Assembly: GCA_017560095.1 (NCBI GenBank)
Contig: JAFYOU010000014.1
Location: 51,678-115,677 of the forward strand
Length of the DNA: 64,000 bases
Source: Candidatus Gastranaerophilales bacterium
GTDB lineage: Bacteria; Cyanobacteriota; Vampirovibrionia; Gastranaerophilales; Gastranaerophilaceae
Reading direction: 5' to 3'
The notes below the pieces were generated by a model that did not search any database, was not told where the DNA came from, and saw only the letters and a list, made by a program, of their open reading frames with translations. Both the position numbers and the translations under genes were made by a program. Every line of letters begins with the position of its first letter. Positions within the stretch are counted from its first letter, which is position 1. Below, in pieces: positions 12,612 through 50,812 of this stretch.

Positions 12612-14501
12612 TTATAAACCGCTTTCTTCATCTTCAATAGGCTTTCCTATTTCATCTGTAGGAGGTTGAGATGGTTCAGTAGGACAGTTTGGAAGCTCTG
12701 TATTTCCACCTTCTCCGCCTTCTCCACCTTCTCCTGGAGGAAGTTCTGGTTTTTCACCTCCTATAGAATCATCTGAAATATCTATATCTGGCAAAACTCC
12801 ACAATCCGGATCGGTTGGATCAGTTGGCTCAGTTGGCTCAGTTGGTTTAGTTGGCTCAGTTGGCTCAGTTGGCTCAGTTGGCTCAGTTGGTTTAGTTGGA
12901 TCAGTTGGTTTAGTTGGATCAGTTGGTTTAGTTGGATCAGTCGGATCAGTTGGTTTAGTTGGTTTAGTTGGTTTATTACCCGAAGTTACACCTGAACCTT
13001 TTGGTTGCACACATGCAATCGCAATTGGTTGAAGATTGATTCTTGCATCTTCATCAGAAAAATCATTGTAATCCAATTCCATATATAGGTCATCAAGAAC
13101 AAATTCAGTTATTCCAAATGTATTTAATAAATAATTATCATTATCTACAATTTGTCTCCAAACAGCCAAAGCAAGGCCAGCATATGTTTCTTTATCAGCT
13201 TTAAGAGCTTTCTTCAAAGAAATACCATCAGCAAGAATAATTGTATCTAAAATATCTATTGGCCTAACAATCTTGTCTTCCATGCCACTTAAGTCATACA
13301 CTGCTTCGTCTGACGCTATATAGCTAATTACAAATTCTGAATTATTTTTTGCAAGCAATTCCTTTACTGCCATATCTTGATTTTTATCATCAATTACAGT
13401 AACTGCAATCCTTGGAAGAAGCAGAGTTATAGAATCATTTTTATTTATATAATCCAATAAAGCTTTTCTAGTATCTTTTTCGCTTGCTTTCGCAAATATA
13501 TCATAATTTGATTCATCAATTGCTATCCCATGCCATATTGCAACTCCGGCACATGAATCCATTGTTGTGATTTGATACTCATTTGCAATTATATTATTTA
13601 AAATAGCAACTTTTTCATTATAACTTTTTGCCTTGGCAAAATCTTCTTTTGATAACTCAATTTCTAATTCGCCATTCTCGTCTCCGCCTGCAGGCGTAAA
13701 TTCAGTGCTTATATTTAAAAATGTTTTATTATTTTTTTCAGTTCTAATTAAAACATTAACTTCAGGCAAATAAACTTCTTTTCCTTCGGTTTTAGAAGTA
13801 GAATAATCAGTAGATAAAATTAATTCAGGGTCAATGTTTGTAATGTCACCTTCCTCAAAATCAACAATTCCTTGAGCTACCAAACCAGCCATCCAAGGGT
13901 TAGCTTTCAATATAGCTTGAGCTATAAGCCATTTAGTTTGTACATCTTTATCTTTGACCCCATATACGTTTTTTATAATGGAATTCAAATCTGCAAATTC
14001 ATTTTTCTTATCCGGTTTTTCTGATAAACAAATGCGCGATACGCTTGGTTTTAATTTAAGTGGTTGATAATTTTCAGTAAAGTCAAAAGTTAAAGATGGG
14101 GAATCTAGCACTTGATCCATTTGAAATTCAAAATCCAACTCAAGTTTTTCTTTTTGATTATCAGCATTTACGACAATGGTTGGCACGGTTGAACCAGAAG
14201 TTTCTTCTATTGACGCAGCACCAGTTTCAGAATAAGCTGGACCGGTGCTGGGTTCAGTTACTGTTGTTGACGCAGTTGAGTTTGAATTATTGCCACAGCC
14301 AGTCAAAACCGTCGCTGCAGCTAAAATTCCTGCCAGTAATTTTTTACCTCTTCCCATAAAGGGTATTTCTTGCGACAATTCTTTATTTTTAAAACTTACA
14401 CTGTCTGTATGCTGAAAATTATTTTTTTGCATCTGCCTAGATTTATTATAAATTCTATTTGTTTTATTAGATTTTATGCTTGCAACTGCTGCTATCTTCA
14501 T
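12612..14501 (-). CDS. Predicted lipoprotein with SFK leader and XPT tandem-repeat tail
   Basis: Function unknown. The 629-residue protein starts with an unusual basic N-terminal extension carrying VSFK at residues 35-38 and IPFMG at 46-50, followed by GKK, a hydrophobic stretch (55-66) and a lipobox LTGC with the candidate lipidated Cys at 69. A normal lipoprotein signal would start near residue 50, so the first 50 residues are extra. A Ser/Thr-rich linker, an unrecognised folded region, about 18 KPT/DPT/EPT units and a Gly/Glu/Pro-rich tail with two cysteines follow. The repeat resembles extended stalks of surface proteins (inference). Confidence 0.7.
   Translation of the reverse strand: MKIAAVASIKSNKTNRIYNKSRQMQKNNFQHTDSVSFKNKELSQEIPFMGRGKKLLAGILAAATVLTGCGNNSNSTASTTVTEPSTGPAYSETGAASIEETSGSTVPTIVVNADNQKEKLELDFEFQMDQVLDSPSLTFDFTENYQPLKLKPSVSRICLSEKPDKKNEFADLNSIIKNVYGVKDKDVQTKWLIAQAILKANPWMAGLVAQGIVDFEEGDITNIDPELILSTDYSTSKTEGKEVYLPEVNVLIRTEKNNKTFLNISTEFTPAGGDENGELEIELSKEDFAKAKSYNEKVAILNNIIANEYQITTMDSCAGVAIWHGIAIDESNYDIFAKASEKDTRKALLDYINKNDSITLLLPRIAVTVIDDKNQDMAVKELLAKNNSEFVISYIASDEAVYDLSGMEDKIVRPIDILDTIILADGISLKKALKADKETYAGLALAVWRQIVDNDNYLLNTFGITEFVLDDLYMELDYNDFSDEDARINLQPIAIACVQPKGSGVTSGNKPTKPTKPTDPTDPTKPTDPTKPTDPTKPTEPTEPTEPTEPTKPTEPTEPTDPTDPDCGVLPDIDISDDSIGGEKPELPPGEGGEGGEGGNTELPNCPTEPSQPPTDEIGKPIEDEESGL
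12808..12975 (-). repeat. Tandem 9-bp repeat encoding XPT units
   Basis: About 18 nearly identical 9-bp units (AGTTGGCTC, AGTTGGATC, AGTTGGTTT on the plus strand) encode KPT, EPT and DPT in the tail of the lipoprotein. The units are ordered in blocks, a pattern expected from slippage, so copy number may vary between strains. Confidence 0.9.
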
Positions 14502-14792
14502 TGAAGCTCTCCCACTTATTACAATGTTTTCAATTTATTAAGACACCTAAATAATTAATTTTGCGCAAAATATAACAAAATAATTATATTTGCACATTTT
14601 CTAATATATAACAAAAATTTCAACTTTTCTTATACCTGTTGTGCTTTTCAATTAATTGTAAAGAAATATTAAAAAATAATCCACTAAAATGTTATAACCA
14701 TAAAACTTGTGGAATTAAAATACCAGATAGACAAAAGGCGTACTAGCCAAAATGCTATATCTGCAAGTAATTTAAAGCAAAGGTGGTAAAAA
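14502..14792. other. Divergent intergenic region
   Basis: This 291-bp AT-rich gap separates the lipoprotein gene (minus) from the coiled-coil protein gene (plus). It must hold both promoters, but no pair of convincing -35/-10 boxes stands out. The only clear element is AAAGGTGG at 14781-14788, the ribosome binding site of the plus-strand gene. Confidence 0.5.
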
Positions 14793-16076
14793 ATGGGATT
14801 ATCAGCAAGTCAAGGCAGATTGCTCCTATTAACAGCGAAAAGAAGTGATTTAGAATTCAGAGCGCAACAAATTTCTCAAAAGAGATTGCTATTATCTCAA
14901 CAACTTGAAGAAATAAGCTTAGAATATGAAGCCGCTACTTCAAATCGTCAAATGAGCATTATGCTTTATCAAACTCAAGCAAACAATTCTTCAGAACAGA
15001 GCTATCGTTCTAGCAACTTAACTTATGCAAGTTTAGTTAGTGGCACAGTCGGAATGGGTGGCCCAGGTGCTGATATTGCTGGCATTCAAGCAAGCGGCAA
15101 TGCAGGCACAGAATACTATGCCTTTTCAAGCAACACCGCATATCGACTTGTTAGCACCAGCGGAGCTCTTGTTGTATCAGATGCATCAGAAATTCCTGGA
15201 TATAACGAAGATGGAGTTGGCGAGTATAATTACACACATACAGTATATAAAGCTGCAGAACAACTAAAAAATGGTGACAATCCTCTATTTGGTGGTAATG
15301 CCTATGTAACAAATAACCAAGATAATTCAAAATCATATTCATTTGTTGCAAATGGCGTATTAGCTGAGTTACTTGGTGAAAATAATACAACTGCCGCTAT
15401 TCAATTCGATCGCAACAATGGCCTTATCAAATATAATGACAAAAATGGTGATGTAAAATATTGCAAACTTGGCGCAGACGGCAATTTTGAAGAAGTAACC
15501 CTAGAAGAAGACAGTGACACTACATACAGCTGGGATAATGCAACTCTATACAAAGATAAAGCTTCAATACCACAAAGTGCAATTAAACAAACCGATAAAC
15601 TTACAACGGAAGTAGTTGAAGGCGCTGATGGTCTAATAACAATATTTAGACTCGATGAAAACGGCGAACATATTGATGGTGGCACAAGATATATCGTTGA
15701 CGAATCATTAAGATATGGCTCAACTGATGGTAATGGCTCAACCGATGGCCCAAATTATCTTCAAGATTGTTTAAGAAATGGAAAATACTTAATCCAAAAA
15801 GGTAGCGTTGACCAAAACAATGATCTAGGTTATAGATGGTCAAATGTATCTTGGGATGCAACCGTAAACATTTCAGACAGCTACTACACAGCAGATGACG
15901 ATGCTGCAAAAGCAAAATATGACAGACTTCAAAATCAAATTCAAGCACAAGATAAAAAATTAGAACTTGAATTAGACAACATTGAAACTCAAAGAAGCGC
16001 TGTTACAACAGAAATTGAATCAGTAGAAAATGTTATCAAAGAAAATATTGAAAGCACATTTAATACTTTCGGTTAA
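14793..16076 (+). CDS. Axial-like protein with terminal coiled coils, unknown function
   Basis: A 427-residue protein without a Sec signal peptide. Residues 1-60 are a predicted amphipathic helix (MGLSASQGRLLLLTAKRSDL onwards) and the last 60 residues are another, rich in Gln/Glu/Leu heptads and ending in ESTFNTFG. Between them is a Gly/Ser/Asn-rich, Tyr-rich globular region. Helical ends around a variable centre recall rod, hook or filament proteins exported by flagellar/type III systems, but sequence identity to those is not evident to me. It is a single-gene unit with a good ribosome binding site and a strong terminator. Confidence 0.6.
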   Translation: MGLSASQGRLLLLTAKRSDLEFRAQQISQKRLLLSQQLEEISLEYEAATSNRQMSIMLYQTQANNSSEQSYRSSNLTYASLVSGTVGMGGPGADIAGIQASGNAGTEYYAFSSNTAYRLVSTSGALVVSDASEIPGYNEDGVGEYNYTHTVYKAAEQLKNGDNPLFGGNAYVTNNQDNSKSYSFVANGVLAELLGENNTTAAIQFDRNNGLIKYNDKNGDVKYCKLGADGNFEEVTLEEDSDTTYSWDNATLYKDKASIPQSAIKQTDKLTTEVVEGADGLITIFRLDENGEHIDGGTRYIVDESLRYGSTDGNGSTDGPNYLQDCLRNGKYLIQKGSVDQNNDLGYRWSNVSWDATVNISDSYYTADDDAAKAKYDRLQNQIQAQDKKLELELDNIETQRSAVTTEIESVENVIKENIESTFNTFG

Positions 16077-16121
16077 AACTTTTAACTTATAAACCCACAT
16101 TCCGCTTAACTTAAATTACTT

Positions 16122-16148
16122 AAAGCAGGCATTAGCCTGCTTTTTTTT
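16122..16148 (+). terminator. Rho-independent terminator
   Basis: GCAGGC-ATTA-GCCTGC stem flanked by AAA and eight T residues, 46 bp after the coiled-coil protein gene. Confidence 0.92.
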
Positions 16149-16174
16149 ATGCAAAGCTAGTGCTAAATAAAATT

Positions 16175-16864
16175 TTATCCCTTCAAAGGAATTTCAAATC
16201 CAAACACACTAACATCTTCAGGATAACTTTTTGCAATCATAGTTCCATTATGAGCATTAATTATTTCTTTTGATAAAAATAATCCCAATCCAATTCCATT
16301 TTTATTATACAAGGCACACATTTTATATTTACTAAAAATTTCCCTTAAAACTTCTTCTTCTATATATGGACTATTATTTTTAATTTCAAAAACAATTTTG
16401 TCATTAAACCTTAAAAGTCTCACTTCAATTTTAGAATTTTTAAAAGCATAATTTACGCTATTTGACAACAAACTTTCAATTACTTTTTTAATTTGAGCTT
16501 TATCTGCACCAATAATTATTTCTTTTTCTGAATTAAATTCCAATTGCAATTCATTATACTTAACCAAAATCCTAATTTCATCAATTAATTCATGAATCAA
16601 TTCGACAATATTGAACTCTTCGTAATTCAAAACCAAAGGTTCAAAATTTAATTTGTATACAGAATTAAAAACTTCAACCGTTTTATACAAATACTTACAA
16701 GAATTTAAAGTTAACTCAATCAAATCTTTTTCATCTGGCGAAATCTTGCTACTTGCAGTATGCAAAAAAGATTCCAAAGCAACAATTTGAGCAATCATAG
16801 GGCTTTCAATATCGCGAATTATTTTTGAAATATACTGATCTTTTTTTATATTTAAACTATTCAT
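16175..16864 (-). CDS. Histidine-kinase-like ATPase lacking the phosphoacceptor histidine
   Basis: A soluble 229-residue protein of HisKA-like plus HATPase_c build. The ATP domain has SLLSNSVNYAFKN (N box), a FEIKNNSPYI G1-like segment and KNGIGLGLFLSKEI (G2). In the dimerisation helix the expected H-[DE]-x-x-[ST]-P reads R17-D-I-E-S-P, with R17 encoded by CGC, one base from CAC His. No membrane or sensor domain and no adjacent response regulator is present. It may bind ATP and a partner without phosphorylating itself, or act as a phosphotransfer regulator. Confidence 0.75.
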   Translation of the reverse strand: MNSLNIKKDQYISKIIRDIESPMIAQIVALESFLHTASSKISPDEKDLIELTLNSCKYLYKTVEVFNSVYKLNFEPLVLNYEEFNIVELIHELIDEIRILVKYNELQLEFNSEKEIIIGADKAQIKKVIESLLSNSVNYAFKNSKIEVRLLRFNDKIVFEIKNNSPYIEEEVLREIFSKYKMCALYNKNGIGLGLFLSKEIINAHNGTMIAKSYPEDVSVFGFEIPLKG

Positions 16865-16945
16865 ACCTACTCTATTCTATAAAATACAGTATAGTATAAA
16901 ATAATTAAATATGTAAATATAATTTATATAATTAATATAAATATA

Positions 16946-17539
16946 TTATTTAGATATAACAAAAACAACCTCTTGAGAAAAGAAATTTGCAATATGTCTA
17001 ATTAAAAAACCGCTTCTTGATTTGTTTCTTGTCAAATAAACAGATTTTTCAATTTTAATATTTCTTTTTTTGCAAAATTCAAAAAAATCACCAATGGTTA
17101 ACAAATGAATATTTGGGGTATCGTACCACTCGTAAGGCAATTGTTCTGATTTTGGCATTCTGCCTTTAAAAAATAAATAAAATCTAACTCTCCAATATGC
17201 AAAATTTGGAAAAGAAACAATGCCTTTTTTTGCAACTCTAAGCATTTCATCAATGATCATTTCGGGATATTTTGTTGATTGCAGGGTTTGATTTAAAATT
17301 GCATAATCATACATATTATCCTGAAATTCATCAAGCCCTTTATCAATATCTCCTTGAATTACGCTCAAACCTTTAACTAAGGCTTCAAGAAGACTATCTT
17401 GGTTAATTTCAACTCCAAAACCTTTAACTTGTTTTTCTGTTTTTAAAAGTTCAAGGAGCTCACCTTGCCCACAACCTAAATCCAAAACACGAGAGTTTTT
17501 TTCAATTAAATCACATACAACTTTATAATTTAAATTCAT
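16946..17539 (-). CDS. metW: Methionine biosynthesis protein MetW
   Basis: SAM-dependent methyltransferase-fold protein of 197 residues with motif I VLDLGCGQGELLELL near residues 18-32, followed by QGDIDKGL and NQTLQSTKYP, typical of MetW. In many bacteria MetW is paired with MetX and supports homoserine acetylation. Here it starts 2 bp after metX stops, so the pair is a coupled operon. Confidence 0.93.
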   Translation of the reverse strand: MNLNYKVVCDLIEKNSRVLDLGCGQGELLELLKTEKQVKGFGVEINQDSLLEALVKGLSVIQGDIDKGLDEFQDNMYDYAILNQTLQSTKYPEMIIDEMLRVAKKGIVSFPNFAYWRVRFYLFFKGRMPKSEQLPYEWYDTPNIHLLTIGDFFEFCKKRNIKIEKSVYLTRNKSRSGFLIRHIANFFSQEVVFVISK

Positions 17540-17541
17540 TG

Positions 17542-18636
17542 TTAACCCCTCAAGAAACTTTTTATTATTTTTGTTTGCTTTTCAAATTCCAACAAAAATG
17601 CATCATGCCCGCACTTACTTTCAAGTTCAACAAAAGAAACATCTTTATCAACCGATACCAATGCATTAACCATTTGCTTAGATTGAGTTGTTGTAAATAA
17701 CCAATCTGTTGAAAAAGAAATAATCAAGAAACGAGAATTGGTATTTTTAAATGCCGCTTCTAAAGACCCATATTCTTTTATTGGATCATAGTAGTCAACA
17801 GCTTTTGTAATGTATAAGTAACTATTTGCATCAAATCTATCTACAAAAACTTTACCTTGATGTTGCAGATAACTTTCAACTTGGAAATCGATTCCAAAAT
17901 CAAAACTTGGACCATCTTTAAACTCTCTTCCAAATTTTTTAAACATAGCCTCTTCGCAAAGATATGTAATATGTCCAATCATACGAGCAATCGAAAGACC
18001 CGAAGAAGGATTTTGCCCATTATAATAATTGCCATTATTGAAATTTGAATCAGTCAAAATTGCATTTCTAGCAACTGCATTAAATGCAATCCCTTGAGCA
18101 TTTAATCTTGCACTTGTTGCAATTAAAATTGTTGAATTAACTACATCTGGATATCGAATTGACCACTCAATTGCTTGCATTCCACCCATTGAGCCACCCG
18201 CAACAATTAATTTTTCAATTCCCAAGTAATCAATCAATTTTTTTTGAACATCAACTATATCTTCGATTGTAACAACCGGAAAATCTAGCGCATATTGCTT
18301 ACCTGTCTCAGGATTAATTGAAGCAGGGCCTGTTGTTCCATAGCAACCACCTAGAACATTTGATGAAATAATAAAGTATTTATTAGTATCAAATGCTTTA
18401 TTGGGCCCAATCATATCATCCCACCAACCAGCTTTTCCTGTATCTTTATGGATATATGCTGCATGAGCACTTCCCGTCAACGCATGCAAAACCAATATGG
18501 CGTTATCTTTGTTTTCATTCAATCTTCCATAAGTTTCGTAAGCAATTTCAACATTCGAAAGAACCTTTCCTGATTTAAGAACAATCGGTTCTTTTACTTT
18601 TAATATTTTAGTTTCTGAATAATTTATATTTCCCAT
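17542..18636 (-). CDS. metX: Homoserine O-acyltransferase (MetX type)
   Basis: Alpha/beta-hydrolase-fold enzyme that acylates L-homoserine, the first committed step of methionine synthesis. The 364-residue protein has LTGSAHA, GWWDDMIGPNKAFDTNKYF, the nucleophile elbow GGSMGGMQ, the catalytic Asp in FSTDWLF and the His in KCGHDAFLLE. Members of this family use acetyl-CoA or, after specific substitutions, succinyl-CoA; I cannot decide the donor by eye. It forms an operon with metW. Confidence 0.94.
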   Translation of the reverse strand: MGNINYSETKILKVKEPIVLKSGKVLSNVEIAYETYGRLNENKDNAILVLHALTGSAHAAYIHKDTGKAGWWDDMIGPNKAFDTNKYFIISSNVLGGCYGTTGPASINPETGKQYALDFPVVTIEDIVDVQKKLIDYLGIEKLIVAGGSMGGMQAIEWSIRYPDVVNSTILIATSARLNAQGIAFNAVARNAILTDSNFNNGNYYNGQNPSSGLSIARMIGHITYLCEEAMFKKFGREFKDGPSFDFGIDFQVESYLQHQGKVFVDRFDANSYLYITKAVDYYDPIKEYGSLEAAFKNTNSRFLIISFSTDWLFTTTQSKQMVNALVSVDKDVSFVELESKCGHDAFLLEFEKQTKIIKSFLRG

Positions 18637-18767
18637 ATATTTATTTTACCATCTTAAACCAAAGTATAAAAATATATTAACTATTGTATAATTTTTTTAA
18701 AAAACACTTCAGTTTTTAAAAAATATGCCGTTATGTTAAAATATAAGTGGCACAGGATTGGGTATTT

Positions 18768-20057: not shown

Positions 20058-20069
20058 GCGGTCTTTTTT
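20043..20069. terminator. Bidirectional terminator, copy 1 of a duplicated hairpin
   Basis: AAAAAGACCGC-CTAA-GCGGTCTTTTT lies between convergent genes and overlaps the HD-GYP stop codon. The identical 26 bases recur at 21662-21687. Confidence 0.92.
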
Positions 20070-21270
20070 AGAATAATTTAATTGGATTTGATTCATCACA
20101 AGAATATTCATGAGGAATCCATTTGCTTTCTGGATTTGCAAGCGAAAAACGACTCACTATTCCATTTTTAACTTCAAATTCTATATCACCATTATAGCCA
20201 CAGCCTATATCTCTACTAGAAACAAAGCTAGATATTCTTCCTCCTTCTTCGTTATTAAAAATAATTTTTAAAGAACCACCCATACAAGCGCCATTTTGTC
20301 TAAGTTCATCTATTCCATACACATTGCCACCATTTAAATAAATTGTTCTAGTATTTCCATTTGGCATTTTACCTCGTATGGTTTTAAAAACATCAGTGGT
20401 TGATGTTTCTTGAATATCAGTTAAGCCTTTTTTCAAATCTTCAAGATTTGGGGCTTTAAAATCTTCAGTAAAATAACCACTCTTTTTAAATGCTTCAATT
20501 GCGCCAACTAATTCACTTTGAGCCTTTTTAGAACCAAAGAGATCAAATATTTCTTCTTGTGCTTTTATATCTTGCCCAAGAGAATTTACGGCTTTTTTCT
20601 CTAAAATTTCACCAGTATTTGCATTTTTTGTAATTTTAAAGAAATCACCATCTTTGCATTCGTATGTTTCTCGAATAGAAAGCCAAGAACCATCTTTTTG
20701 TTTTATAGTATTATGAGTTAATTTTCCTTTATAAAAACCATTTACTTCAGCATGTTGAGTTCTTACAACTTCATTTTTGCCGATAACTGTTTCAGTCAAC
20801 AGTCTTCCATCTTTTGCCGTTTTTTTAATGATTTTAGTACCATTTTCGCCATCTAAATAAGTTTTTGATGTTAAAGCATTTTTAACTTTACTTCCATCTA
20901 AATCAACTTCACTAAATTTTGTTGATTTAGTTAATTTTCCATCTATATACTCTAGGGCAAATTTACCTTCTTTATTTGCAACTTCAATTGTACCGGTATA
21001 AGGTTTTCCTTTAACAAGAGCTTGACCTTTATCAAATTTACCAAGTTTTTTAAATTCTTCTATAGATAATTCTTTAGGAACTTTTCCTTTTTTAATTGCC
21101 ATTGTAATTCCAACAGAAGCAACGCCCACCGTAGCTAAGCCTGCTAAAGCAAGCATTAATTTCTTTTTATCACCTTTTTGCTCAGTTTTTGGTTGCGTTT
21201 TAGTTTCGGCAGTTACTTTTGTTGAAGAAAAAGAAACTTGAGAAGCCGAATTAACACTTTCTATACTCAT
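20068..21270 (-). CDS. Leader/transmembrane protein of unknown function with MORN-like N-terminal part
   Basis: Function unknown. ATG 21270 is chosen because GAAAGG lies 6 nt upstream; a longer frame to 21345 lacks support. The 400-residue protein begins MSIESVNSASQVSFSSTKV with VSF at residues 12-14, then a Lys-rich segment and a hydrophobic helix (LMLALAGLATVGVASVGI) ending in KKGK. Residues about 75-230 contain repeated G-K-x-Y-x-G/beta-hairpin-like segments (GKPYTGTIE, NGFYKGKLT) similar to MORN or phage-type antitoxin-like repeats. The C-terminal region has several cysteines. It is monocistronic. Confidence 0.6.
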   Translation of the reverse strand: MSIESVNSASQVSFSSTKVTAETKTQPKTEQKGDKKKLMLALAGLATVGVASVGITMAIKKGKVPKELSIEEFKKLGKFDKGQALVKGKPYTGTIEVANKEGKFALEYIDGKLTKSTKFSEVDLDGSKVKNALTSKTYLDGENGTKIIKKTAKDGRLLTETVIGKNEVVRTQHAEVNGFYKGKLTHNTIKQKDGSWLSIRETYECKDGDFFKITKNANTGEILEKKAVNSLGQDIKAQEEIFDLFGSKKAQSELVGAIEAFKKSGYFTEDFKAPNLEDLKKGLTDIQETSTTDVFKTIRGKMPNGNTRTIYLNGGNVYGIDELRQNGACMGGSLKIIFNNEEGGRISSFVSSRDIGCGYNGDIEFEVKNGIVSRFSLANPESKWIPHEYSCDESNPIKLF

Positions 21271-21404
21271 GCAAAACCTTTCATAACTGGCTATTATATC
21301 TACATAAAACAAAACTATTAGGTTATCTTGCCAATATTTTAGCAAAATTTTACAAATTTTAATAGTTATTAGCTATTATTTATATACTAGCGACCATTAG
21401 AAAA

Positions 21405-21431: not shown

Positions 21432-21436
21432 CTAAT

Positions 21437-22346: not shown

Positions 22347-22352
22347 TTTTAC

Positions 22353-26774: not shown

Positions 26775-27881
26775 TTATTTTTTTCTAACTACAAAAACAC
26801 CATCAGTCATTAAAGCCATTTCAGCAAAACTATATTCACCTGCATTAAAAATTGTAGCCTGACAAGCTTCTTGCTGTCCATTTGTCTTTGACCCTTCATT
26901 CATTTTAGCAAGAACACTACTAACAGTAGTCTGAGCACAACCGAGCATTTGAGCAATTTGCTTTTGAGTATATCCTTGCCTACTAAGCTGTAGTATTTGT
27001 TCTCCATATCTTGATTTCATATTGGCTTGCTTTGCTTGCGTGTCAATTCCAGCTTCTTGCAATATCTTTCTAATTGTAGCCGTGCCACATTTATATATTG
27101 AAGCAAGTTTAAATTGACTCATATTTTCATCGCAATAAAGTCTTACAATCTCAGCTTTATTTTTTTCAGCCAAACTTAATTCTTTTTCTATTTTTTGACC
27201 CCATCCGCGAAGGGCATTTCTAATATCACTTTCTTTACATTTAGTTATTTGCGCAATTTCTTTTATTGGCACTTTTTCATTACAAAGCTTCAAAATTAAA
27301 TCCTTATTTTGTTCAACGGGACTTTTAATTTCACCCCAAGCTTTAAGAGCTCGCTCAACAAGTCTGCCACTACATCCAATTTCTTGGCCAATTTCAAAAA
27401 AAGGCACTTCTAGTTTAAAAAGTTCAATAATCCTATCCTTATTTTGCTCAATTACTTCCTCTATTGTCCACATATCCCAACGCTTAAAAGCCATTACAAT
27501 ATCACCTGAATTACAACCAATTTCTCTGCAAATTTCTGCTTGAGTTGCGCCCGATTTATAAAGCTCAACAATTCTAGGTTTATTTTGCTCCATTAACCCA
27601 TATGCTTGTGTTTTAACACCCAAGTACCTAAAAGCATAAGAAACCGTACTTGGATGGCATTCTGCACCTTCTGCAATTTGAACTTGAGTCTCTCCCGCAT
27701 TATGCATATCAATCATTTCTTGCTTTTTTCGACTCGTTACCCCAGTGGTCATTCCACCAAAAGATATTGAAGCATTTACATCAATCGGTGTTTTATAGCA
27801 ACCTTTAAGATTAACAACATTGACTTGCTTTAAATTATTCTTATACTGACATGTATTTATTAAGTAGTTAGGAATTAACAT
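26775..27881 (-). CDS. Six-unit tandem helix-turn-helix array protein with SFGG leader
   Basis: A 368-residue protein made mostly of six consecutive HTH units of 45-50 residues. Each has the pattern [R/K/N]-x-x-I-[V/I/L]-x-L...G-x-[T/P]-x-x-x-I-A-x-x-x-x-C, with the turn Cys at 75, 123, 170, 215, 265 and 315. Units 2-4 begin with EQNK, unit 5 with EKNK, and several end in W-G. No catalytic domain follows; the last 40 residues are unrelated. The first 50 residues are a leader with ISFGG at 39-43. The build suggests a modular DNA-binding protein that could contact a long site. A classical transposase or resolvase is unlikely, since no nuclease part is present. Confidence 0.7.
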   Translation of the reverse strand: MLIPNYLINTCQYKNNLKQVNVVNLKGCYKTPIDVNASISFGGMTTGVTSRKKQEMIDMHNAGETQVQIAEGAECHPSTVSYAFRYLGVKTQAYGLMEQNKPRIVELYKSGATQAEICREIGCNSGDIVMAFKRWDMWTIEEVIEQNKDRIIELFKLEVPFFEIGQEIGCSGRLVERALKAWGEIKSPVEQNKDLILKLCNEKVPIKEIAQITKCKESDIRNALRGWGQKIEKELSLAEKNKAEIVRLYCDENMSQFKLASIYKCGTATIRKILQEAGIDTQAKQANMKSRYGEQILQLSRQGYTQKQIAQMLGCAQTTVSSVLAKMNEGSKTNGQQEACQATIFNAGEYSFAEMALMTDGVFVVRKK

Positions 27882-28076: not shown

Positions 28077-28916
28077 ATGATTAACATATATACAAGCAAC
28101 TTTACTTATGGCTTATATTCTAAAAATTCTGACAACATAATAAATTTTAATTCTAAACGAAACACAAACAAAACCAAAAAAGCTTCTATTAGTTTCAAAG
28201 GAAGCAATGTTCAAGAATTAGAACAAAATGATTTGTCTTCTTCTATATTGCGTTATATGACAGGAATGAAAAATCGCTTAATTACAATTCTTGAACAAGA
28301 AGGATTGTTAACAATTAAAGATATTGAAAAAATTACAAAAGCGTTTGATGAAGAAATTAATCCAAATAGCACCACAATGCAACATATGCTTGAAGATATA
28401 GAATTTATGAAGTCTACTTCAAAATTATTAAATAATAGCGATGATCCAAAAATGATTTTAGCTCAAGATACTGTTCCTGTAAGATTTTATTACGAAGTAG
28501 CACATAAATTATACAATAATAATGAACAAGCTTTGGGTATGCAAGTTGCTAAAAAAAGTACACAAATCACAGGGGCTCAAATTTATCCAGGCGCAAAAAT
28601 TGAACCAGGCGTCATGTTTAGTCATGGCATAGGGGTGGTTATAGGCAACACTGCACATGTTGGCGCCAAGAGCACAATATATCAAAATGTTACTCTTGGC
28701 AGACGAAGTGGGCCTAATGCTATGCAAGCAAACAGGGATTTCAGACATCCACAAGTTGAAAATGGGACAACAATTGGCGCTGGCGCAATATTATTAGGTC
28801 CAATTATTATTAAAGACAATGCAAAAGTAGGTGCTGGTGCGATAGTAACCCATGATATGCCCGAAGGTTCAGTTGCAAGATATAAAGCTTCAGATATTTA
28901 TCCCGCCATTAGTTAA
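28077..28916 (+). CDS. Serine O-acetyltransferase-like hexapeptide protein with SFKG leader
   Basis: The C-terminal half (about residues 130-279) is a left-handed beta-helix acetyltransferase closest to CysE: GAQIYPGAKIEPGVMFSHGI, GVVIGNTAHVG, TIYQNVTLGRR, the RHPQVENG loop and VGAGAIV. The two active-site-region histidines of CysE are present. The first 45 residues form a basic Asn/Lys-rich leader with ISFKG at 38-42, absent from normal CysE. ACTGGAGG precedes the ATG. It may still make O-acetylserine or acetylate another substrate. It overlaps the convergent ART gene by 8 bp. Confidence 0.75.
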   Translation: MINIYTSNFTYGLYSKNSDNIINFNSKRNTNKTKKASISFKGSNVQELEQNDLSSSILRYMTGMKNRLITILEQEGLLTIKDIEKITKAFDEEINPNSTTMQHMLEDIEFMKSTSKLLNNSDDPKMILAQDTVPVRFYYEVAHKLYNNNEQALGMQVAKKSTQITGAQIYPGAKIEPGVMFSHGIGVVIGNTAHVGAKSTIYQNVTLGRRSGPNAMQANRDFRHPQVENGTTIGAGAILLGPIIIKDNAKVGAGAIVTHDMPEGSVARYKASDIYPAIS

Positions 28917-41692: not shown

Positions 41693-41947
41693 TTACACGA
41701 TTGTGTTAATTTTATTTTCTACATTCAATCCATTTTCTATGCTTAATTGACGTTTCATAAATGTTTCATAGAACAATGGAGATTGTTTAATAGTTCCTAG
41801 AAAATCTGTTAAAAAACTTGTCTCATTCTTTGAACTTGTATTATTTATTACGTCAGCTCCATAGTTAGATTGAACACCAGCTTTAAAGCTTACTTTTTTA
41901 TTATTAATTGTATTTTGTACATTTTTTATTGAACTTACTTTTAACAT
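41693..41947 (-). CDS. Small SFKAG-leader protein, unknown function
   Basis: An 84-residue, mostly polar protein without signal peptide or membrane helix. Its first 24 residues end in KKVSFKAG (VSFKAG at 19-24), the same leader style as other proteins in the window; here the leader is almost a third of the protein. It has its own strong promoter, an AGAGGTGAG ribosome binding site and a terminator, so it is an independently transcribed and probably well expressed gene. No family is recognised. Confidence 0.65.
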   Translation of the reverse strand: MLKVSSIKNVQNTINNKKVSFKAGVQSNYGADVINNTSSKNETSFLTDFLGTIKQSPLFYETFMKRQLSIENGLNVENKINTIV

Positions 41948-42277: not shown

Positions 42278-42393
42278 ATATATTATTTGCTTTTGTTTTA
42301 ATTTTCATCTTTGAGTTAACAAAATAAAACAATTACGCCTAAAACATGTTTTTAATGTAAAATTAAAACAACAATAATTAATCGGAGGATAAA

Positions 42394-43632: not shown

Positions 43633-44679
43633 ATGATTAAATTATCTCAAGCACACGTTTTAGGGACAATAATTGCTTATTTACTTGGAATTTTTATTGT
43701 TCCTTTGGTAATATATTATTCAAAAAAGAAAAACTTGGTTGATATTCCAAACGAAAGAAAGATTCACCACGGAGCAATTTCTCGTCTTGGAGGAGTTGCA
43801 ATTTGGCTTTCTGTTATGCTAACTTTCGTTTTCTTGGTTTTCCTAAGCTATTACCCAAAGGGACAAGGGCTAAGTGCAATTATTGTCGGTGGTTCCTTAA
43901 TGTTTTTAATGGGATTAATTGATGATGTTTATGGATTGAATGCTAAATTTAAATTATTCATACAAATTGCAATAGCAACAATAGTTATCCTTTTAGGTGT
44001 TAGAATCGAAACATTCTATAACCCATTCGGAGCTGATATTACACTTGGTTGGATGAGCTATCCTATAACTTTATTGTGGATTGTAGGAATAACAAATGCA
44101 ATTAATTTCATAGATGGTGTTGATGGTCTAGCAGGTTCAATCGTAAGCATATCGGCCCTTGCTATTGGTCTTGTTTCATTAGCCTTAGCTCCCGCTGTTC
44201 CAATCACGGCGTTAATTGCTTTTATTTTAATGGGTGCAATGTGTTCATTTTTAACATTTAACTATAACCCAGCTAAAATATTTATGGGTGATTCTGGCGC
44301 ATTATATGCTGGATTTTTGCTTGCAACACTATCTATAACGGGAATAGTAAAACCATCAACAGGAATTTCTATGTATCTTCCAATTTTAATTCTTGCAGTT
44401 CCTTTAATGGATGTTGCTTTTTCTTCAAGCAGAAGAATGCTCAAAGGAACAAGTCCATTTGTAGCTGATAGCGAACACATTCATCATAAATTGCTTCATG
44501 CAGGCTATTCTCAAGATAAACTAGTATTACTATTAGCAAGTTTTTCGATGGTTTGCGCTTTATTATCAATTTTTGTTGTTACAACAAAAAGTAAATTTAT
44601 AATAACAGCACTAAGTTTAATTGCAGTTCTTTTAATATTAAACACTGTTTCAAAATTAATTAAGAAAAAAGATAATTAA
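43633..44679 (+). CDS. WecA/TagO-type undecaprenyl-phosphate sugar-1-phosphate transferase
   Basis: An integral membrane enzyme of the MraY/WecA superfamily, 348 residues with about ten helices. Key motifs: NERKIHHGAISRLGG, LIDDVYGLNAK (Asp pair), NFIDGVDGLAGS, NPAKIFMGDSGAL and the C-terminal cytoplasmic loop HIHHKLL, which is the His-rich loop of WecA/TagO rather than MraY. It starts envelope glycan assembly on undecaprenyl phosphate. It begins at the base after the glyA stop, suggesting translational coupling. Confidence 0.92.
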   Translation: MIKLSQAHVLGTIIAYLLGIFIVPLVIYYSKKKNLVDIPNERKIHHGAISRLGGVAIWLSVMLTFVFLVFLSYYPKGQGLSAIIVGGSLMFLMGLIDDVYGLNAKFKLFIQIAIATIVILLGVRIETFYNPFGADITLGWMSYPITLLWIVGITNAINFIDGVDGLAGSIVSISALAIGLVSLALAPAVPITALIAFILMGAMCSFLTFNYNPAKIFMGDSGALYAGFLLATLSITGIVKPSTGISMYLPILILAVPLMDVAFSSSRRMLKGTSPFVADSEHIHHKLLHAGYSQDKLVLLLASFSMVCALLSIFVVTTKSKFIITALSLIAVLLILNTVSKLIKKKDN

Positions 44680-44706
44680 AAAAGCTCCCTTCAAAGGGAG
44701 CTTTTT
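44679..44706. terminator. Bidirectional terminator
   Basis: AAAAAGCTCCCTT-CA-AAGGGAGCTTTTT between the convergent WecA-like and DegT aminotransferase genes. Confidence 0.93.
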
Positions 44707-44722
44707 ATTAAATTTGTTTATC

Positions 44723-45844
44723 CTATGCAGTAACAACTGATTTTTCAACTGCTTCAATTAATACTCTTGCAACTTCTCTTTGCTCTTCTTCAGTAATTTC
44801 AGCAAACATCGGAAGAGAAAGAACAAGTTTTGTATTTTCTTCTGTTATTGGGAGCATACCTTCTTTAAAGTTATATTTTTCATGAACTTTTTGAAGATGT
44901 AATGGAATAGGATAATAAATCATAGCGCCAATACCAGCATCTGCAAGCATTTTATGAACACCATCTCTATTTGGAATTTTAACTGTATATTGATGATATA
45001 CACAATATGTTGCATCTAATTCTTTTGGAGTTTCAATCAAAGAGCAGTTTTTAAATAATTCATTATATAGCTTTGCATGCTCTCTTCTTGCACCATTCCA
45101 TTTATCAATATATGGAAGTTTTACTCTTAAAATTGCTGCTTGAATCTCATCAAGTCGAGAATTAACACCAATTTCATCATGATGATATCTAATAGCTCCG
45201 CCATGGTTTCTTAAAGCAATTACTCTATCTTTAATATATTGGGAATTTGTTGATAATAAACCACCATCACCCATAGTTCCTAAGTTTTTAGTTGGATAGA
45301 AGCTAAAGCAACCAACATCACCAATGGTTCCTACTTTTCTTCCTTTATATTCAGCGCCAATTGCTTGACAAGCGTCTTCAATTACAAATAAATTATGACG
45401 TTTAGCTATATCAATAATTGGGTCCATATCACAAGGTTGGCCATATAAATGAACTGGAATAATTGCTTTTGTTTTTGGCGTTATTGCTGCTTCGATTTTT
45501 AATGGGTCAATATTAAATGTATCAGCATCAATATCAACAAAAACAGGTTTAGCTCCAACTATTCCAATTGATTCAGATGTTGCAACAAAAGTAAATGCTG
45601 TTGAAATTACTTCGTCACCCTCACCTATATCTAACGCTCTCAGCGCTAAATGAAGAGCATCAGTTCCTGAATTTAGCGCAACTGTGTGTTTGCAATCTAA
45701 ATATTCACACATTTCAGCTTCAAATTCTTTATTATTATTGCCTAAAATATATGAGCCACTTCTCATAACTTCCAAAACCGCAGCTTCGGCTTTTTGGGCA
45801 ATTGTTTCATATTGTCTTTTTGAATTAATAATAGGAATTCTCAT
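44723..45844 (-). CDS. DegT/DnrJ/EryC1/StrS family aminotransferase
   Basis: PLP-dependent sugar aminotransferase of 373 residues acting on nucleotide-linked keto-sugars. It shows the family's GSYILGNNNKEFEAEM start, LNSGTDALHLALRAL, EDACQAIGAEYKGRKVGTIG, the PLP lysine in FSFYPTKNLG and the HHDEIGVNSRLDEIQAAILR block. ATG 45844 is preferred to an ATG at 45859 because the AGGAG between them is the ribosome binding site. The role is probably in surface glycan synthesis, in line with the convergent WecA-like gene. Confidence 0.92.
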   Translation of the reverse strand: MRIPIINSKRQYETIAQKAEAAVLEVMRSGSYILGNNNKEFEAEMCEYLDCKHTVALNSGTDALHLALRALDIGEGDEVISTAFTFVATSESIGIVGAKPVFVDIDADTFNIDPLKIEAAITPKTKAIIPVHLYGQPCDMDPIIDIAKRHNLFVIEDACQAIGAEYKGRKVGTIGDVGCFSFYPTKNLGTMGDGGLLSTNSQYIKDRVIALRNHGGAIRYHHDEIGVNSRLDEIQAAILRVKLPYIDKWNGARREHAKLYNELFKNCSLIETPKELDATYCVYHQYTVKIPNRDGVHKMLADAGIGAMIYYPIPLHLQKVHEKYNFKEGMLPITEENTKLVLSLPMFAEITEEEQREVARVLIEAVEKSVVTA

Positions 45845-45975
45845 ACTTTTTCTCCTCATTTCTACTTTAATGTATTAATAATAACATATTTAGTTGTATG
45901 AAGTTATTAAGATTGTATTAAGAAACGCAAAAATTTTTCTTTAGAAATTTTATATAATCAAATCTAAGGAAAAAC

Positions 45976-47369
45976 ATGAGAATATCACCAGTTTACAGCA
46001 TAAACTTTGGTTACAATAAAAAACTAAGTCAAAGATTAAATAACCGATTAAACAATAGTGAGCAAACTCCAACAATCAAGCTTATCGGAGAAATGAATTC
46101 AACTTGCAATAGCGTTGAATCAATGATTGTTCAACTTGAAAATCCTAATAGTGGCGGAGTGGACAGAAACGAAGAACAAATAAATATTCTTCTAAGCTAT
46201 TTTTTGACAACAAAAAGAACTCTTTGTCATTTAGTAGAAAGAATTTTTCCCGATTTAAATTTTTTAAAGAAAACAATTGATACTCTTGATAGCGAGCAAG
46301 TAGAAAATGCAGAGATATACAAAAACGAATCTCCTGATGATTTAAACAAACCTTGTTATTCTTGGAGAGAAATTCTTTATCAAGAATTAAACAAAGATTT
46401 AGTTTCAAAAACAAATTTATCAACCCCTATTGGATTAAGTGGTGTTGGTGTTGGTATTGAGGAAGGTGGAAATCGAACTTTTTTAACAAAATTCGAGCCA
46501 TCTTCTTCATCTCCTAAATCTTTAGATGATGTTGTTGGACTTGATAAATACAAAAAGAAAATTAAAAATTTTATAATTTTCCCACTTGAAGACCCAGAAA
46601 AAGCAAAACAAAGAGAAATAGATTATGGAATAAAATTCCTGGTTTTAGCGTGTTTTATGGTCCTCCGGGATGTGGTAAAACAATGCTTGCTGAAGCAATT
46701 GCAGCTGAATCAGGCTGTGATATGTATAAACTTGATTTATCTCAAGTTGGTTCAACTTATGTAAATGGAACAGTTGTCAATATTGCAAAAGCATTCAATG
46801 AATTAGAAGAAATTGCAAAAAGATCACAAAAGCCTATATTATTATTTATGGATGAAATGGACTCTTTAATGTCCAAAAGAGATGGTTCAGAGTCTAAATC
46901 AGAAGAAGACAATAAAGTTGTCAATACCCTTTTACCGCTAATTTTAGGTGCACAAGATAAAAATATTTTAATAATTGGCGCAACAAATATGTACAATTCG
47001 CTTGACCCCGCTATTAAAGATAGGGTTAAATTTAGCGCATACATTGGTTTACCTAATGAATCAGAAATTAAAAAACTTTTAGCAAAAGTTTTAAATAAAT
47101 ACAAAATGAGCCAAAACTTAGCAAATAATGATAAGGCATTAACAAATTTATCTAAAAAATTAATTAACTACTCTCCTAGAAGCATAACTAATATGCTTTC
47201 TTTAGCCCTAGAATATGCTTGGGAAGAATCAAGAGAATTAATTGAAGCCGATATCGAAAAAGCAATAACTGAAGGAAATTTTGAAAAAATTAACGAAGAA
47301 GAATATCTTCCTCAAAATAAAAAGCAAAGCAAGGTAGTTGATGGATTTTTAGGAGCACATCAAGGTTAA
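45976..47369 (+). pseudogene. AAA+ ATPase with INFG leader, split by a one-base frameshift
   Basis: Two plus-strand frames form one protein of about 464 residues. Frame 1 has a leader with INFG at 9-12, a helical region and the start of an AAA module (LDDVVGLDKYKKKIKNF). Frame 2 carries Walker A GPPGCGKT, Walker B LLFMDEMDS, sensor 1 GATNM and an Arg-finger-like DRVKF, plus a lid domain. The frames meet at a run of four A (46632-46635). One extra A gives DYGIKIPGFSVFYGPPGCGK in one frame. It may be a pseudogene, a slippage-controlled gene or a consensus error. Confidence 0.8.
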
Positions 47370-47436
47370 TTTTACCAGACTTGCGCAAAATTCCTTGTTT
47401 TATTAAGATAAAAATAGGTAAATAAAGGAATTTTAA

Positions 47437-48651
47437 ATGGGAATATTTGAAGAACTTCAAGAACGTCAATTAATTGCTCAAATTACAAATGAGCAAGAAG
47501 TTAAAGATTTAATAAATTCGGGAAATGCTCGTTTTTACATAGGTTTTGACCCAACGGCAGATTCATTACATGTTGGTCATTTCATGGCTTTATGTTTAAT
47601 GAAACGCCTGCAAATGGCGGGAAATAAGCCAATTGTTTTAATTGGTGGCGGAACAGGTCACATTGGAGACCCATCAGGACGCTCTGATATGCGCTCTATG
47701 ATGACATCAGAAATAATTAATCATAATTGCGAATGTTTTAAAAAACAAATGGAAAGATTTATTGAATTTGGCGAAGATAAAGCAATTATGGTAAATAACG
47801 CTGATTGGCTTCTAAAACTAAACTACATTGAACTATTAAGAGATGTTGGAGCTTGTTTTTCTGTTAATAATATGCTTCGCGCTGAATGCTACAAACAAAG
47901 AATGGAAAAAGGTTTAAGTTTCCTTGAATTCAACTATATGATTATGCAAGCTTATGATTTTTATTATTTAAATGAAAATTATAATTGCAATCTTCAGTTT
48001 GGCGGAGATGATCAATGGTCAAATATGTTAGCTGGTTCAGATTTAATTAGAAGGAAAACCGGCAAAGATGCTCATTCAATGACAATTACTTTGTTGATGA
48101 ATTCTCAAGGTAAAAAAATGGGTAAAACTGCATCAGGCGCTGTTTGGTTAGATAAAAATAAAACTTCAGTTTATGATTTTTACCAATATTGGAGAAATGT
48201 TGAAGATGATGATGTATTAAAATGCATTAAAATGCTCACTTTCTTACCATTAGATGAAATTAAAAAAATGGAATCATGGCAAGGAGCTGAATTAAATAAA
48301 GCAAAAGAAATTTTAGCTTATGAATTAACTTCATTAGTTCATGGTGAAGACGAAGCGCGTATTGCACAAGAATCTGCAAGAGCATTATTCTCAGGCGGTG
48401 GTGATGATTCAAATATGCCAACAACCGAATTAGAATTTGCTGATGATGAAATTTCTTTGATTGATGTTTTAATTAAAACAAATTTATGCCAAAGTCGCGG
48501 TGAAGCAAAAAAATTAATTCAACAAGGCGGAATATCAATTGAAGAAGAAAAAATTAACGATCTAAATTATAAATTCACACGCATTGCTTTAAAAGATGGC
48601 ATAAAGATCAAAAAAGGAAAAAAAATATATCATCGCATAATTTCAAAATAA
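47437..48651 (+). CDS. tyrS: Tyrosyl-tRNA synthetase
   Basis: Class Ic aminoacyl-tRNA synthetase of 404 residues. The HIGH motif is HVGH in GFDPTADSLHVGHF, and the KMSKS motif reads KKMGKT, as is common in TyrRS. QFGGDDQWSNMLAG is the tyrosine/ATP site. The last 60 residues are an S4 RNA-binding domain (NLCQSRGEAKKLIQQGGISI). AAAGGAA precedes the ATG. No T-box leader is visible. Confidence 0.96.
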   Translation: MGIFEELQERQLIAQITNEQEVKDLINSGNARFYIGFDPTADSLHVGHFMALCLMKRLQMAGNKPIVLIGGGTGHIGDPSGRSDMRSMMTSEIINHNCECFKKQMERFIEFGEDKAIMVNNADWLLKLNYIELLRDVGACFSVNNMLRAECYKQRMEKGLSFLEFNYMIMQAYDFYYLNENYNCNLQFGGDDQWSNMLAGSDLIRRKTGKDAHSMTITLLMNSQGKKMGKTASGAVWLDKNKTSVYDFYQYWRNVEDDDVLKCIKMLTFLPLDEIKKMESWQGAELNKAKEILAYELTSLVHGEDEARIAQESARALFSGGGDDSNMPTTELEFADDEISLIDVLIKTNLCQSRGEAKKLIQQGGISIEEEKINDLNYKFTRIALKDGIKIKKGKKIYHRIISK

Positions 48652-48736
48652 CGTAATTATTAACTTAAAATTTAAACTACTATAAATGTATTACATTTCT
48701 TAATAATAGCTTTCTTTTTTTATATATTAAAGTTAT

Positions 48737-48798
48737 TATAATCTTGTTGTTAATGCTTCGGCTAGTATGCGAATTGGGGTCTGTACCCCATTTTTTTT
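48737..48798 (+). ncRNA. Candidate short RNA with its own -10 box and terminator
   Basis: A perfect TATAAT at 48737-48742 is followed about 34 bp later by the hairpin TGGGGT-CTGT-ACCCCA (48775-48790) and eight T residues, with no open frame between. The expected RNA of about 50 nt also contains GC-TTCG-GC. It ends well before the next gene. The -35 region is weak. Confidence 0.45.
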
Positions 48799-48879
48799 GC
48801 CTTAAAATCATACTTTTATATTAAACATCTCAATAAAAGATATGCTAAACTCGTAATGTACGAAAGGAGTTTATCTAAA

Positions 48880-49347
48880 ATGGAATCAAAAGATGAAAAA
48901 TATCTAATTTTAGAGCAATATAGAATTTATTCTGACGCAAAAGAAAAATTTATTGAAAGACAATTTGCTACAAACAGATTTTATTTAGTAATAAATATAA
49001 TCATGCTTATTGCAATATATATATTAAATGTTTTAACACCACAATACACTCCAATTATCATTTTATCAGTAATTGGCTTTGCAATGACAATGATGTGGTG
49101 GATGAACATAGACTCATATCAAACACTCATCAAAGTTAAATATGCAAAAGTTTTAGAATATCTTGAAACAAAATTACCAGAGCAACCATACCATAAAGAA
49201 TTTGTTGATTACGCAGAAATGAAAAAGAAAAACAATTTAATTGTTTTTGGCGATTTTCAAAAATACTTAACTCTCGCAATCGCTCTAGTATATGTTGTAT
49301 TTTTTGCAAACAGTATTACTAATATGATTAAATATCAAATTATGTAA
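48880..49347 (+). CDS. Two-helix-pair membrane protein, RipA-like
   Basis: A 155-residue protein with a charged N-terminus (YSDAKEKFIERQFATNRFYL), two helices near 35-80, a cytoplasmic segment with WWMNIDSYQTLIKVKYAKVL and LEYLETKLPEQPY, and a final helix. This pattern (Trp, then ConservedTyr-LI-x-x-Lys-Y-x-VL-x-x-LE-x-x-LP) resembles RipA-type octameric membrane proteins. ATG 48880 is chosen because AAAGGAG is upstream; the ATG at 48856 has none. Function is unknown. Confidence 0.55.
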   Translation: MESKDEKYLILEQYRIYSDAKEKFIERQFATNRFYLVINIIMLIAIYILNVLTPQYTPIIILSVIGFAMTMMWWMNIDSYQTLIKVKYAKVLEYLETKLPEQPYHKEFVDYAEMKKKNNLIVFGDFQKYLTLAIALVYVVFFANSITNMIKYQIM

Positions 49348-49363
49348 TAATAAACATATTTTT

Positions 49364-49390
49364 AAAAAGCCACCCAAAAGGTGGCTTTTT
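49364..49390. terminator. Bidirectional terminator
   Basis: AAAAAGCCACC-CAAAA-GGTGGCTTTTT between convergent genes. Confidence 0.92.
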
Positions 49391-50812
49391 CTATTTAAAA
49401 CCTTCAATAGGGATGACTTTTGTTGCTATTTTTGAATCATCTGGATCTTTTCCGGATAATATTTTCAAAAAATCATCAACACCTTTTTGAACATCAGAAT
49501 AAAAATCAGAATTAGTTAAATAATTCAAAATGGCTTCTCTATCCATTCTATTAAATAATTCCGGTTGTTTCAGTCTGTAATTTTCAAGATCTTCAATTCT
49601 TTGTTTCAACTCTTTTGCCATCAGCAACATGTCTAAAGTTGCAATACGGCATCTTTTACCATGTTTATTTGTTGTTATCTTGGTAATTAACTCGTCCGAC
49701 ATTGAATTTAAAGCTTGAATATTTGTTTGCCTTAAGCTTCTATCATGTCTAAATGACATAGATGCATCAAATCTTAGTTGTTTTGCTGACAAAACTTTTA
49801 TGAATTTATTAGTATCTAATAATGCAACATCATCATAAAAATCAGCAAAAGCTCCGTTAGTTTCATGATTTAAAGCACTAATTAATTCTGGTATAGTCTC
49901 ATAATGCATTTTTGTATTTAATACCATAATATTTGAAGGTTTTGTTGATTCTTCTCGTCTCGCCAATGTATCAAAATCTTTTTGCCACAAATCATAACTT
50001 GCCATATCAAACAAACTATAACCTCTATGTTTGTTGTATTTAATATAATTATTAAGAGCACTGATATCTTGAGGCATATAGCTATTTGTAGCAAGGATTG
50101 CTGCTTCTTGTTTGCTAAATGGACGAATTAATCCTGATTTTAATTCACCATTATCGCCTCTTTCATCCGATACCCATTCTTTGATTATTTCTAAACTATT
50201 TGCTATTTGCAATGCGCTATATTCAGCTTGTTGCACATTATTATTTTGCAAATACATATCAGATTGCAGAAGCTTATAATACTCATTGACTTCCATTGCA
50301 ACATCTTTGCTCAACTTACCCTTTAAAATTAAACCGCTTAATACTAAATCAAAACCTTTTAAATTGTACTTTGCAAGCTCGATTGGTAAAAACTCAGCTT
50401 CGCCGATTTGATGAGAACTAGCATCAACCGAACTTTTTTCATAAAATTCCGGCAAAACGTCACTATGTTGCATATAATAATCATCCATATCAAATTCTAA
50501 ATATAAAATAGCTTCAGCCGGATTTAAATGTCTGTCAATACCTACCCAATGTGCTATTGATTCATCATCCGCAAATCCTTGAGTTAATTCTTTATATTTA
50601 TCTGTGTTTATATATTTTGAAACAAGTTCATTTGCCGTTTTTATGTCATAACCAGCTTCTTGCAATTCGGCAACAATTTGATTGCGTTTTATTGCCCTAT
50701 CGGAAAATTGAATTATATCGTTCCTTGATTTAAAAGATACCTTTGTTAAATTATTTTTATTTGTTTTGCCACACATTGAAATAGAATTTAATTTTAATAA
50801 GCTTATATCCAT
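49391..50812 (-). CDS. SFK-leader protein of unknown function
   Basis: A 473-residue protein with VSFK at residues 25-28 of a basic/polar N-terminal leader. The rest is largely alpha-helical by composition, with no hydrophobic helix, cofactor motif or repeat that I recognise. Segments such as DRHLNPAEAILYLEFDMDDY, RPFSKQEAAILATNSYMPQD and SFRHDRSLRQTN look conserved-protein-like. It is a single gene between two terminators. No function is proposed. Confidence 0.65.
   Translation of the reverse strand: MDISLLKLNSISMCGKTNKNNLTKVSFKSRNDIIQFSDRAIKRNQIVAELQEAGYDIKTANELVSKYINTDKYKELTQGFADDESIAHWVGIDRHLNPAEAILYLEFDMDDYYMQHSDVLPEFYEKSSVDASSHQIGEAEFLPIELAKYNLKGFDLVLSGLILKGKLSKDVAMEVNEYYKLLQSDMYLQNNNVQQAEYSALQIANSLEIIKEWVSDERGDNGELKSGLIRPFSKQEAAILATNSYMPQDISALNNYIKYNKHRGYSLFDMASYDLWQKDFDTLARREESTKPSNIMVLNTKMHYETIPELISALNHETNGAFADFYDDVALLDTNKFIKVLSAKQLRFDASMSFRHDRSLRQTNIQALNSMSDELITKITTNKHGKRCRIATLDMLLMAKELKQRIEDLENYRLKQPELFNRMDREAILNYLTNSDFYSDVQKGVDDFLKILSGKDPDDSKIATKVIPIEGFK

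Follow-up and report, generated by a model that had tools for sequence, protein, structure and literature searches.

The effectors of injectisomes, the non-flagellar type III systems, carry polar, Ser/Asn/Ile-rich, disordered N-termini that are not Sec signals and that precede unrelated bodies; to our knowledge, these signals share no consensus. The export signal of early (rod and hook) flagellar subunits consists of an N-terminal hydrophobic signal and a gate recognition motif, with a spacing of at least 26-30 residues between them (PMC8983047). Flagellar basal bodies can also be kept without a filament, as described for Buchnera (PMC8109811). Here, we describe an N-terminal leader ending in a short motif of the F-x-G type, which was noticed on otherwise unrelated proteins in a stretch of 64,000 nucleotides (the window; contig JAFYOU010000014.1 of GenBank assembly GCA_017560095.1) from a Candidatus Gastranaerophilales bacterium. 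The assembly comprises 58 contigs and 2.07 Mb, with a completeness of 98.7%, a contamination of 7.07% and a sampled guanine-plus-cytosine content of 30%.

The leader is almost certainly a genuine N-terminal tag that is under selection on many unrelated proteins, and its hosts are Candidatus Gastranaerophilales. The signal would be laid out as an M-x-[IV] start, a variable polar and disordered stretch, and [STNP]-F-x-[GAS], at its best S-F-x-G, before the folded body. With injectisome signals it shares the polar, Ser/Asn/Ile-rich, non-Sec and disordered character and the occurrence on unrelated bodies, but it differs by a short motif that is invariant within families. With the early flagellar signal, the likeness lies in the two-part layout, with a hydrophobic or small non-polar start and a downstream motif; the leader differs in that the downstream motif is F-x-G, in that the spacing is short and variable (Phe at residue 12-54) and does not keep to the minimum of 26-30 residues, and in that it heads enzymes and proteins of no named function rather than rod and hook proteins. 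Like a Sec signal peptide it is N-terminal and found on exported enzyme families, yet the leaders measured lack a hydrophobic core.

The strongest evidence for a tag is conservation, as the motif is kept in two unrelated families while the remaining leader drifts. The first family is that of a G073 protein (C2:109728, L081), with relatives in 54 of 194 genomes of the class, namely 52 in the family to which the window belongs (f1), one in a sister family that belongs to the same order and one weak match elsewhere. Its 33 N-terminal or partial open reading frames (ORFs) have mutually dissimilar leaders that end in VSFSG, PTFTG, PSFCG, QNFNG and similar forms, and the F-x-G motif directly abuts the conserved body. 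In an alignment of 26 homologues (25 of the 33 rows plus a seed from G032, with eight fragments or outliers excluded), Phe and Gly are invariant in 26/26 rows and account for two of only eight invariant columns, with the middle residue free, while the leader upstream of Phe is 11 to 41 residues long and its top-residue fraction averages 0.15, compared with 0.41 in the body. A strict F-x-G rule is passed by 42 of 46 distinct N-termini, outliers counted, with Phe at a median position of 26; the other four are a C-terminal fragment, one with F-N-G ahead of a different residue, one with F-G-S and one without Phe. The copy in the sister family f10 has ASFGG at the equivalent place. An AlphaFold2 model (mean predicted local distance difference test score 86.6) leaves residues 1-39 under 50, and the fold begins at the motif. 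A structure search with this model gave weak hits alone, none at E 0.001, in which the second half resembles HEAT repeats; judging from the Gly, Lys, Glu and Asp residues that are conserved there, the first half may be kinase-like, and we refer to the family by this feature.

UshA-type 5'-nucleotidases are ordinarily exported, and a metallophosphatase/5'-nucleotidase family, unrelated to the kinase-like one, also carries the leader. Its close members, 16 among the 194 class genomes, all lie within f1, and in 16/16 the leader is short and polar, with F-x-[GSA] right before the catalytic domain; the G032 seed has F-K-Q in its place. Sec signals are also lacking in four ordinary f1 5'-nucleotidases, of which two have an F motif (TFKS, ISFG). 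The 12-residue hydropathy maximum is at most 0.92 in 19/19 f1 5'-nucleotidase N-termini, which thus have no hydrophobic core, compared with 2.20-2.63 in Sec-type relatives. Where FlhA and FliP, components of the flagellar-type export apparatus discussed below, are both absent, the 5'-nucleotidases read are of the Sec type in 4/4 cases (G146, G166, G205 and G151; maxima 2.28-2.61; three further places are omitted from these counts), and six of ten from other FlhA- or FliP-positive lineages are polar (two each in f3, f8 and f9). In those few lineages that were read, Sec loss accompanies the machine.

Enrichment was measured as sites in residues 2-60 against sites in the remainder of the protein, for genes from stretches of four genomes of the same family: the window's own (556 kb including the window), G073, G145 and G032 (385-400 kb each). 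Among the 61 window proteins of at least 80 residues, the literal motif [VI]SF[KG] has 5 sites in residues 2-60 and 4 elsewhere (odds 5.4, p=0.015), and a broader core, [VI][SN]F[KGSTNQ][GASN], which was picked after viewing hits in the own genome and G073, in part on these very hits, has 7 and 2 (odds 15, p=2e-4). Outside the window, the sampled part of the own genome shows no enrichment of the literal motif (1/25429 vs 10/120430, p=0.88) but does show enrichment of the core (7/25429 vs 10/120430, odds 3.3, p=0.019). In G145 and G032, which were unused for choosing, both the literal motif (10/43483 vs 17/197659, odds 2.7, p=0.015) and the core (12/43483 vs 18/197659, odds 3.0, p=0.004) are enriched. 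Over the four genomes, the core is found at 35/91863 positions in residues 2-60 and at 37/427946 elsewhere (odds 4.4, p=1.9e-9), an excess above background of about 27 of 1557 proteins (about 1.7%), and 0 of 119 position-order permutations of the core reach this score. The sequence-only reading had named equal frequency at other positions as an outcome that would speak against it; this does not hold for the broader core, but it does for literal VSF-K/G outside the window in the own genome, and the literal form is too narrow a motif definition.

This failure of the literal motif could be taken to mean that the pattern arises by chance or from the composition of Asn/Ser/Ile-rich N-termini. The same explanation is favored by the single genomes, in which 8/119 (G145) and 33/119 (G032) permutations score as high, and by the weak signal in an independent set of 318 proteins that flank one gene in 23 named genomes, mostly in one shared neighbourhood (records mostly labelled Candidatus Gastranaerophilales, Melainabacteria or uncultured bacterium, with a few under other labels). 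There, the core enrichment is non-significant (4/17808 vs 12/83781, p=0.30) and that of [STN]F.G is merely 1.8-fold (p=0.04). Chance is contradicted, however, by the invariant Phe and Gly in 26 homologues with a drifting leader and by F-x-[GSA] in all 16 members of the unrelated 5'-nucleotidase family, and we consider it very improbable. Plain k-mer enrichment of N-termini was drowned by membrane and prepilin patterns, and a self-trained weight matrix was dropped as overfitted. Genome-scale DNA patterns for the motif gave 38, 39 and 22 hits against permutation means of 54.0, 43.1 and 29.6, so pattern scans were not used for the distribution.

The tag also has a start signature of small non-polar residues, since M-[KRN]-[ILV] begins 24 of 50 leader proteins and 125 of 1507 others. 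When 87 of 2014 proteins were picked by start and polarity with the motif ignored, SF.G was the top Phe pattern (11/87 vs 22/1927), and VSF was also among the top ones (10/87 vs 22/1927). The codons for the motif's Val, Ser and subsequent residues vary freely, and therefore selection acts on the protein; a DNA-level or ribosome-site motif is ruled out by the same variation. The start tendency bears on the explanation that F-x-G is a processing site, at which a protease would cleave to release the body and the variable part would be a pro-sequence to be discarded. Such a site would fit a motif that marks the junction of a disordered stretch and a fold, behind an upstream part that varies in length and sequence, but an M-x-[IV] start is needless for a mere cut site, and we judge processing to be improbable.

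A candidate route for export is provided by a second flagellar-type apparatus. FHIPEP (FlhA) matches were found in 145 of 146 family genomes and fall into two score classes: 58 genomes have a flagellar-class FlhA (about 848-885 bits), 81 others contain the second class alone (about 705-736 bits) and six (G045, G054, G056, G067, G125 and G126) have partial matches only, the sole genome of the 146 without a match being G031, which is 63% complete. The second class is also among the matches listed for at least 38 of the 58 flagellar-class genomes, the own genome included, and a second, non-flagellar FlhA is present in at least 119/146 family genomes. In 17 genomes, the second-type FlhA proteins are 76-98% identical to one another and 36-40% identical to seven flagellar FlhA proteins, from which they are separated by a fully supported branch (100/100). 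The operon in G145 encodes, by Pfam, FlhB, a lytic transglycosylase (SLT), FliE, FliF, an unnamed 316-residue protein, FliH and FlhA; by eye, the order from the transglycosylase-like gene to FlhA is matched in the own genome, and three stretches (L140, L136 and L271) have the gene order of the G145 operon. FliP and rod proteins (PF00460) were each found in 12/12 genomes, with two FliP copies in the four with flagellin and one in the eight without; flagellin at E 0.001 is absent from these eight genomes, which keep the second machine, and was found in the other four, including the own genome. Outside the family, FlhA had zero matches in the listed f2 and f7 genomes, unlike other families of the class, and likewise none in the f4 genome G168, among the genomes listed (20 match-less genomes are unlisted).

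Further proteins were observed around this apparatus. A protein of 316-317 residues lies between FliF and FliH, at the place expected for FliG (L093 11296-12246, L271 2941-3894), and has no Pfam family match at E 0.01 (G145). A soluble protein of 483 residues (L272 573-2024, G000:C51) matches the C-terminal half of FlhA alone (about 310-655); similar ORFs of about 485-515 residues recur across the listed family genomes, and the protein might be a receptor for substrates. Prepilin-like proteins that start GFTLAEVLITLGIIG are encoded at L140 4855-5475 and 12041-12868 and in other G073 stretches, some adjoining the second export operon.

The sequence-only reading had proposed a lineage-specific tag for sorting, secretion or processing. 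The tag itself is borne out by N-terminal enrichment, the association with the start and the two conserved families, and among the three roles secretion has the most support, since one enzyme family has the leader where its relatives carry a Sec signal peptide. Judged from sequence, the leader is probably an export signal of some kind. The second flagellar-type apparatus is a plausible route for the leader proteins, although we would stop short of calling it probable, and it is with the same reserve that we propose that Candidatus Gastranaerophilales use the leader as a two-part N-terminal export signal, distinct from Sec signals, which is read by this apparatus. The leader would remain unfolded, cytoplasmic parts of the second apparatus (FlhA-2/FlhB-2) would read the start and F-x-G, the body would follow the leader through the FliP-type gate and the protein would finish outside the cytoplasm.

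Beyond the weak independent set, in which the M.[IV] start is also not tied to [STN]F.G (2/49 vs 11/269), several observations weigh against this proposal. In 20 stretches around FlhA copies, leader genes were not concentrated close to the machine, and the motif is absent from the FliE and SLT proteins of the second machine. Two of the four ordinary f1 5'-nucleotidases have no F motif at all, though they are non-Sec, and among the ten from other FlhA- or FliP-positive lineages, three have a Sec signal (f3, f5 and f10) and one is ambiguous (1.71, f10). A small sample of 80 proteins from the machine-positive family f6 has no clear leader, and the polar 5'-nucleotidase leaders outside f1 are mostly without F-x-G, so that, across the class, the occurrence of the motif does not match that of the machine. 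As Sec loss tracks the machine while polar leaders elsewhere mostly lack F-x-G, the F-x-G form is a refinement seen in the order Gastranaerophilales. The f6 sample would equally suit an export signal for another route, such as a type IV pilus/type II system or some other, unknown secretion machinery, as would the prepilin-like proteins that are common in the sample; against such a route, the Sec/non-Sec split of the 5'-nucleotidases tracks the presence of FlhA/FliP in the few lineages read, and we regard it as quite improbable.

A further explanation draws on the bodies behind the leader. Among 30 proteins of leader type, a few of them without the motif, 11 matched Pfam at E 0.001 and 19 did not; the matches are to 5'-nucleotidase, 4-alpha-glucanotransferase, amidohydrolase, alpha/beta hydrolase, CheR, nucleotidyl transferase, DHH, GGDEF+HD, AAA+, RNase T and phosphoglucomutase. 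Membrane-like (transmembrane) segments were seen in 14 of 54 leader proteins, and a lipobox in the window protein at 12612, which also count against the proposed export. F-x-G could instead act inside the cell, as a sorting or docking tag without export: a short linear motif by which soluble proteins and membrane proteins alike are attached to a single partner in the cytoplasm or membrane. This would account for the transmembrane-like segments, for bodies of cytosolic type (CheR, DHH, phosphoglucomutase, nucleotidyl transferase, GGDEF+HD and helix-turn-helix) and for the location of the motif at the edge of the fold in the AlphaFold2 model. However, 5'-nucleotidases are usually exported and have Sec signals in the FlhA-negative relatives read, so that their retention would demand a changed role, and we consider docking unlikely, if the most probable of the rivals.

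In the window itself, the motif is seen in the translations of the six proteins for which it had been claimed and, in its looser form, in a seventh (Table 1), falling inside the first 45 residues in all seven.

Table 1. Leader proteins of the window, with window coordinates and position of the motif.
Protein	Coordinates	Strand	Leader and motif
629-residue protein	12612..14501	-	VSFKN at residues 35-39 (~14385-14399), then LTGC and a Pro/Thr-rich tail
400-residue protein	20068..21270	-	VSFSS at residues 12-16, then a transmembrane-like segment at about residue 37
368-residue helix-turn-helix array protein	26775..27881	-	ISFGG at residues 39-43
279-residue hexapeptide-repeat (CysE-like) protein	28077..28916	+	ISFKG at residues 38-42
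84-residue protein	41693..41947	-	VSFKAG at residues 19-24
262-residue ORF, looser member	45976..46764	+	short leader, INFG at residues 9-12
473-residue protein	49391..50812	-	VSFKS at residues 25-29

For the 20068-21270 protein, the longest ORF begins at a TTG 25 codons upstream of the start used for numbering. That the bodies are unrelated was upheld by Pfam at E 0.01 for the helix-turn-helix families in 26775 and the hexapeptide repeats in 28077, with zero family matches for the other five of the seven, but an AAA+ body does not belong to ORF 45976 itself, as that similarity sits in the overlapping ORF 46650-47369. The two ORFs of this segment (45976-47369) are in different frames, and the second resembles the AAA+ part of a 521-residue leader protein of G032; the segment represents either a pair of genes or a single gene that is broken or was misassembled. 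The description of the leader as non-Sec is not clean for 12612, because a lipoprotein-like signal, LTGC at residues 66-69, comes after the leader. Behind both lies a long Pro-Thr-Asp/Glu/Lys repeat tail. An internal start of this protein at M49 is disfavored, as GGGAGAG, which is Shine-Dalgarno-like, precedes M1 and no such sequence precedes M49. The claim that the leader is missing from normal homologues was put to the test with 28077, whose relatives align only from residue 77 on, the closest that turned up being distant CysE-like ones. The 49391 protein has zero relatives among the 97 family genomes searched.

Earlier reports took the incomplete sets of flagellar genes in Gastranaerophilales for reduction or loss (PMC3787301, PMC4040986). 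The 76-98% identity of the second FlhA between genera argues instead that one part was kept for use and is not decaying. The retention of flagellar export parts without a filament resembles what is reported for the Buchnera basal bodies, but here the retained apparatus is a separate second FlhA lineage, which some members of the family have alongside a complete flagellar set. In the literature covered, which includes the accessible text of PMC3787301, PMC4040986 and PMC5877343 and leaves subscription papers and preprints mostly uncovered, no description of the leader or of a type III system in this group was found. A type III signal with a recognisable motif would be unusual, and if the tag has an invariant core, the secreted proteins of an uncultured gut lineage could be listed from sequence alone. 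More speculatively, in this gut-dwelling order allied to the Cyanobacteria, a flagellar export machine without a filament might have become a system for protein secretion in general, through which at least about 2% of the proteins, for the most part unnamed and fast-changing, would leave by the F-x-G tag, perhaps reaching neighbouring or host cells in some cases.

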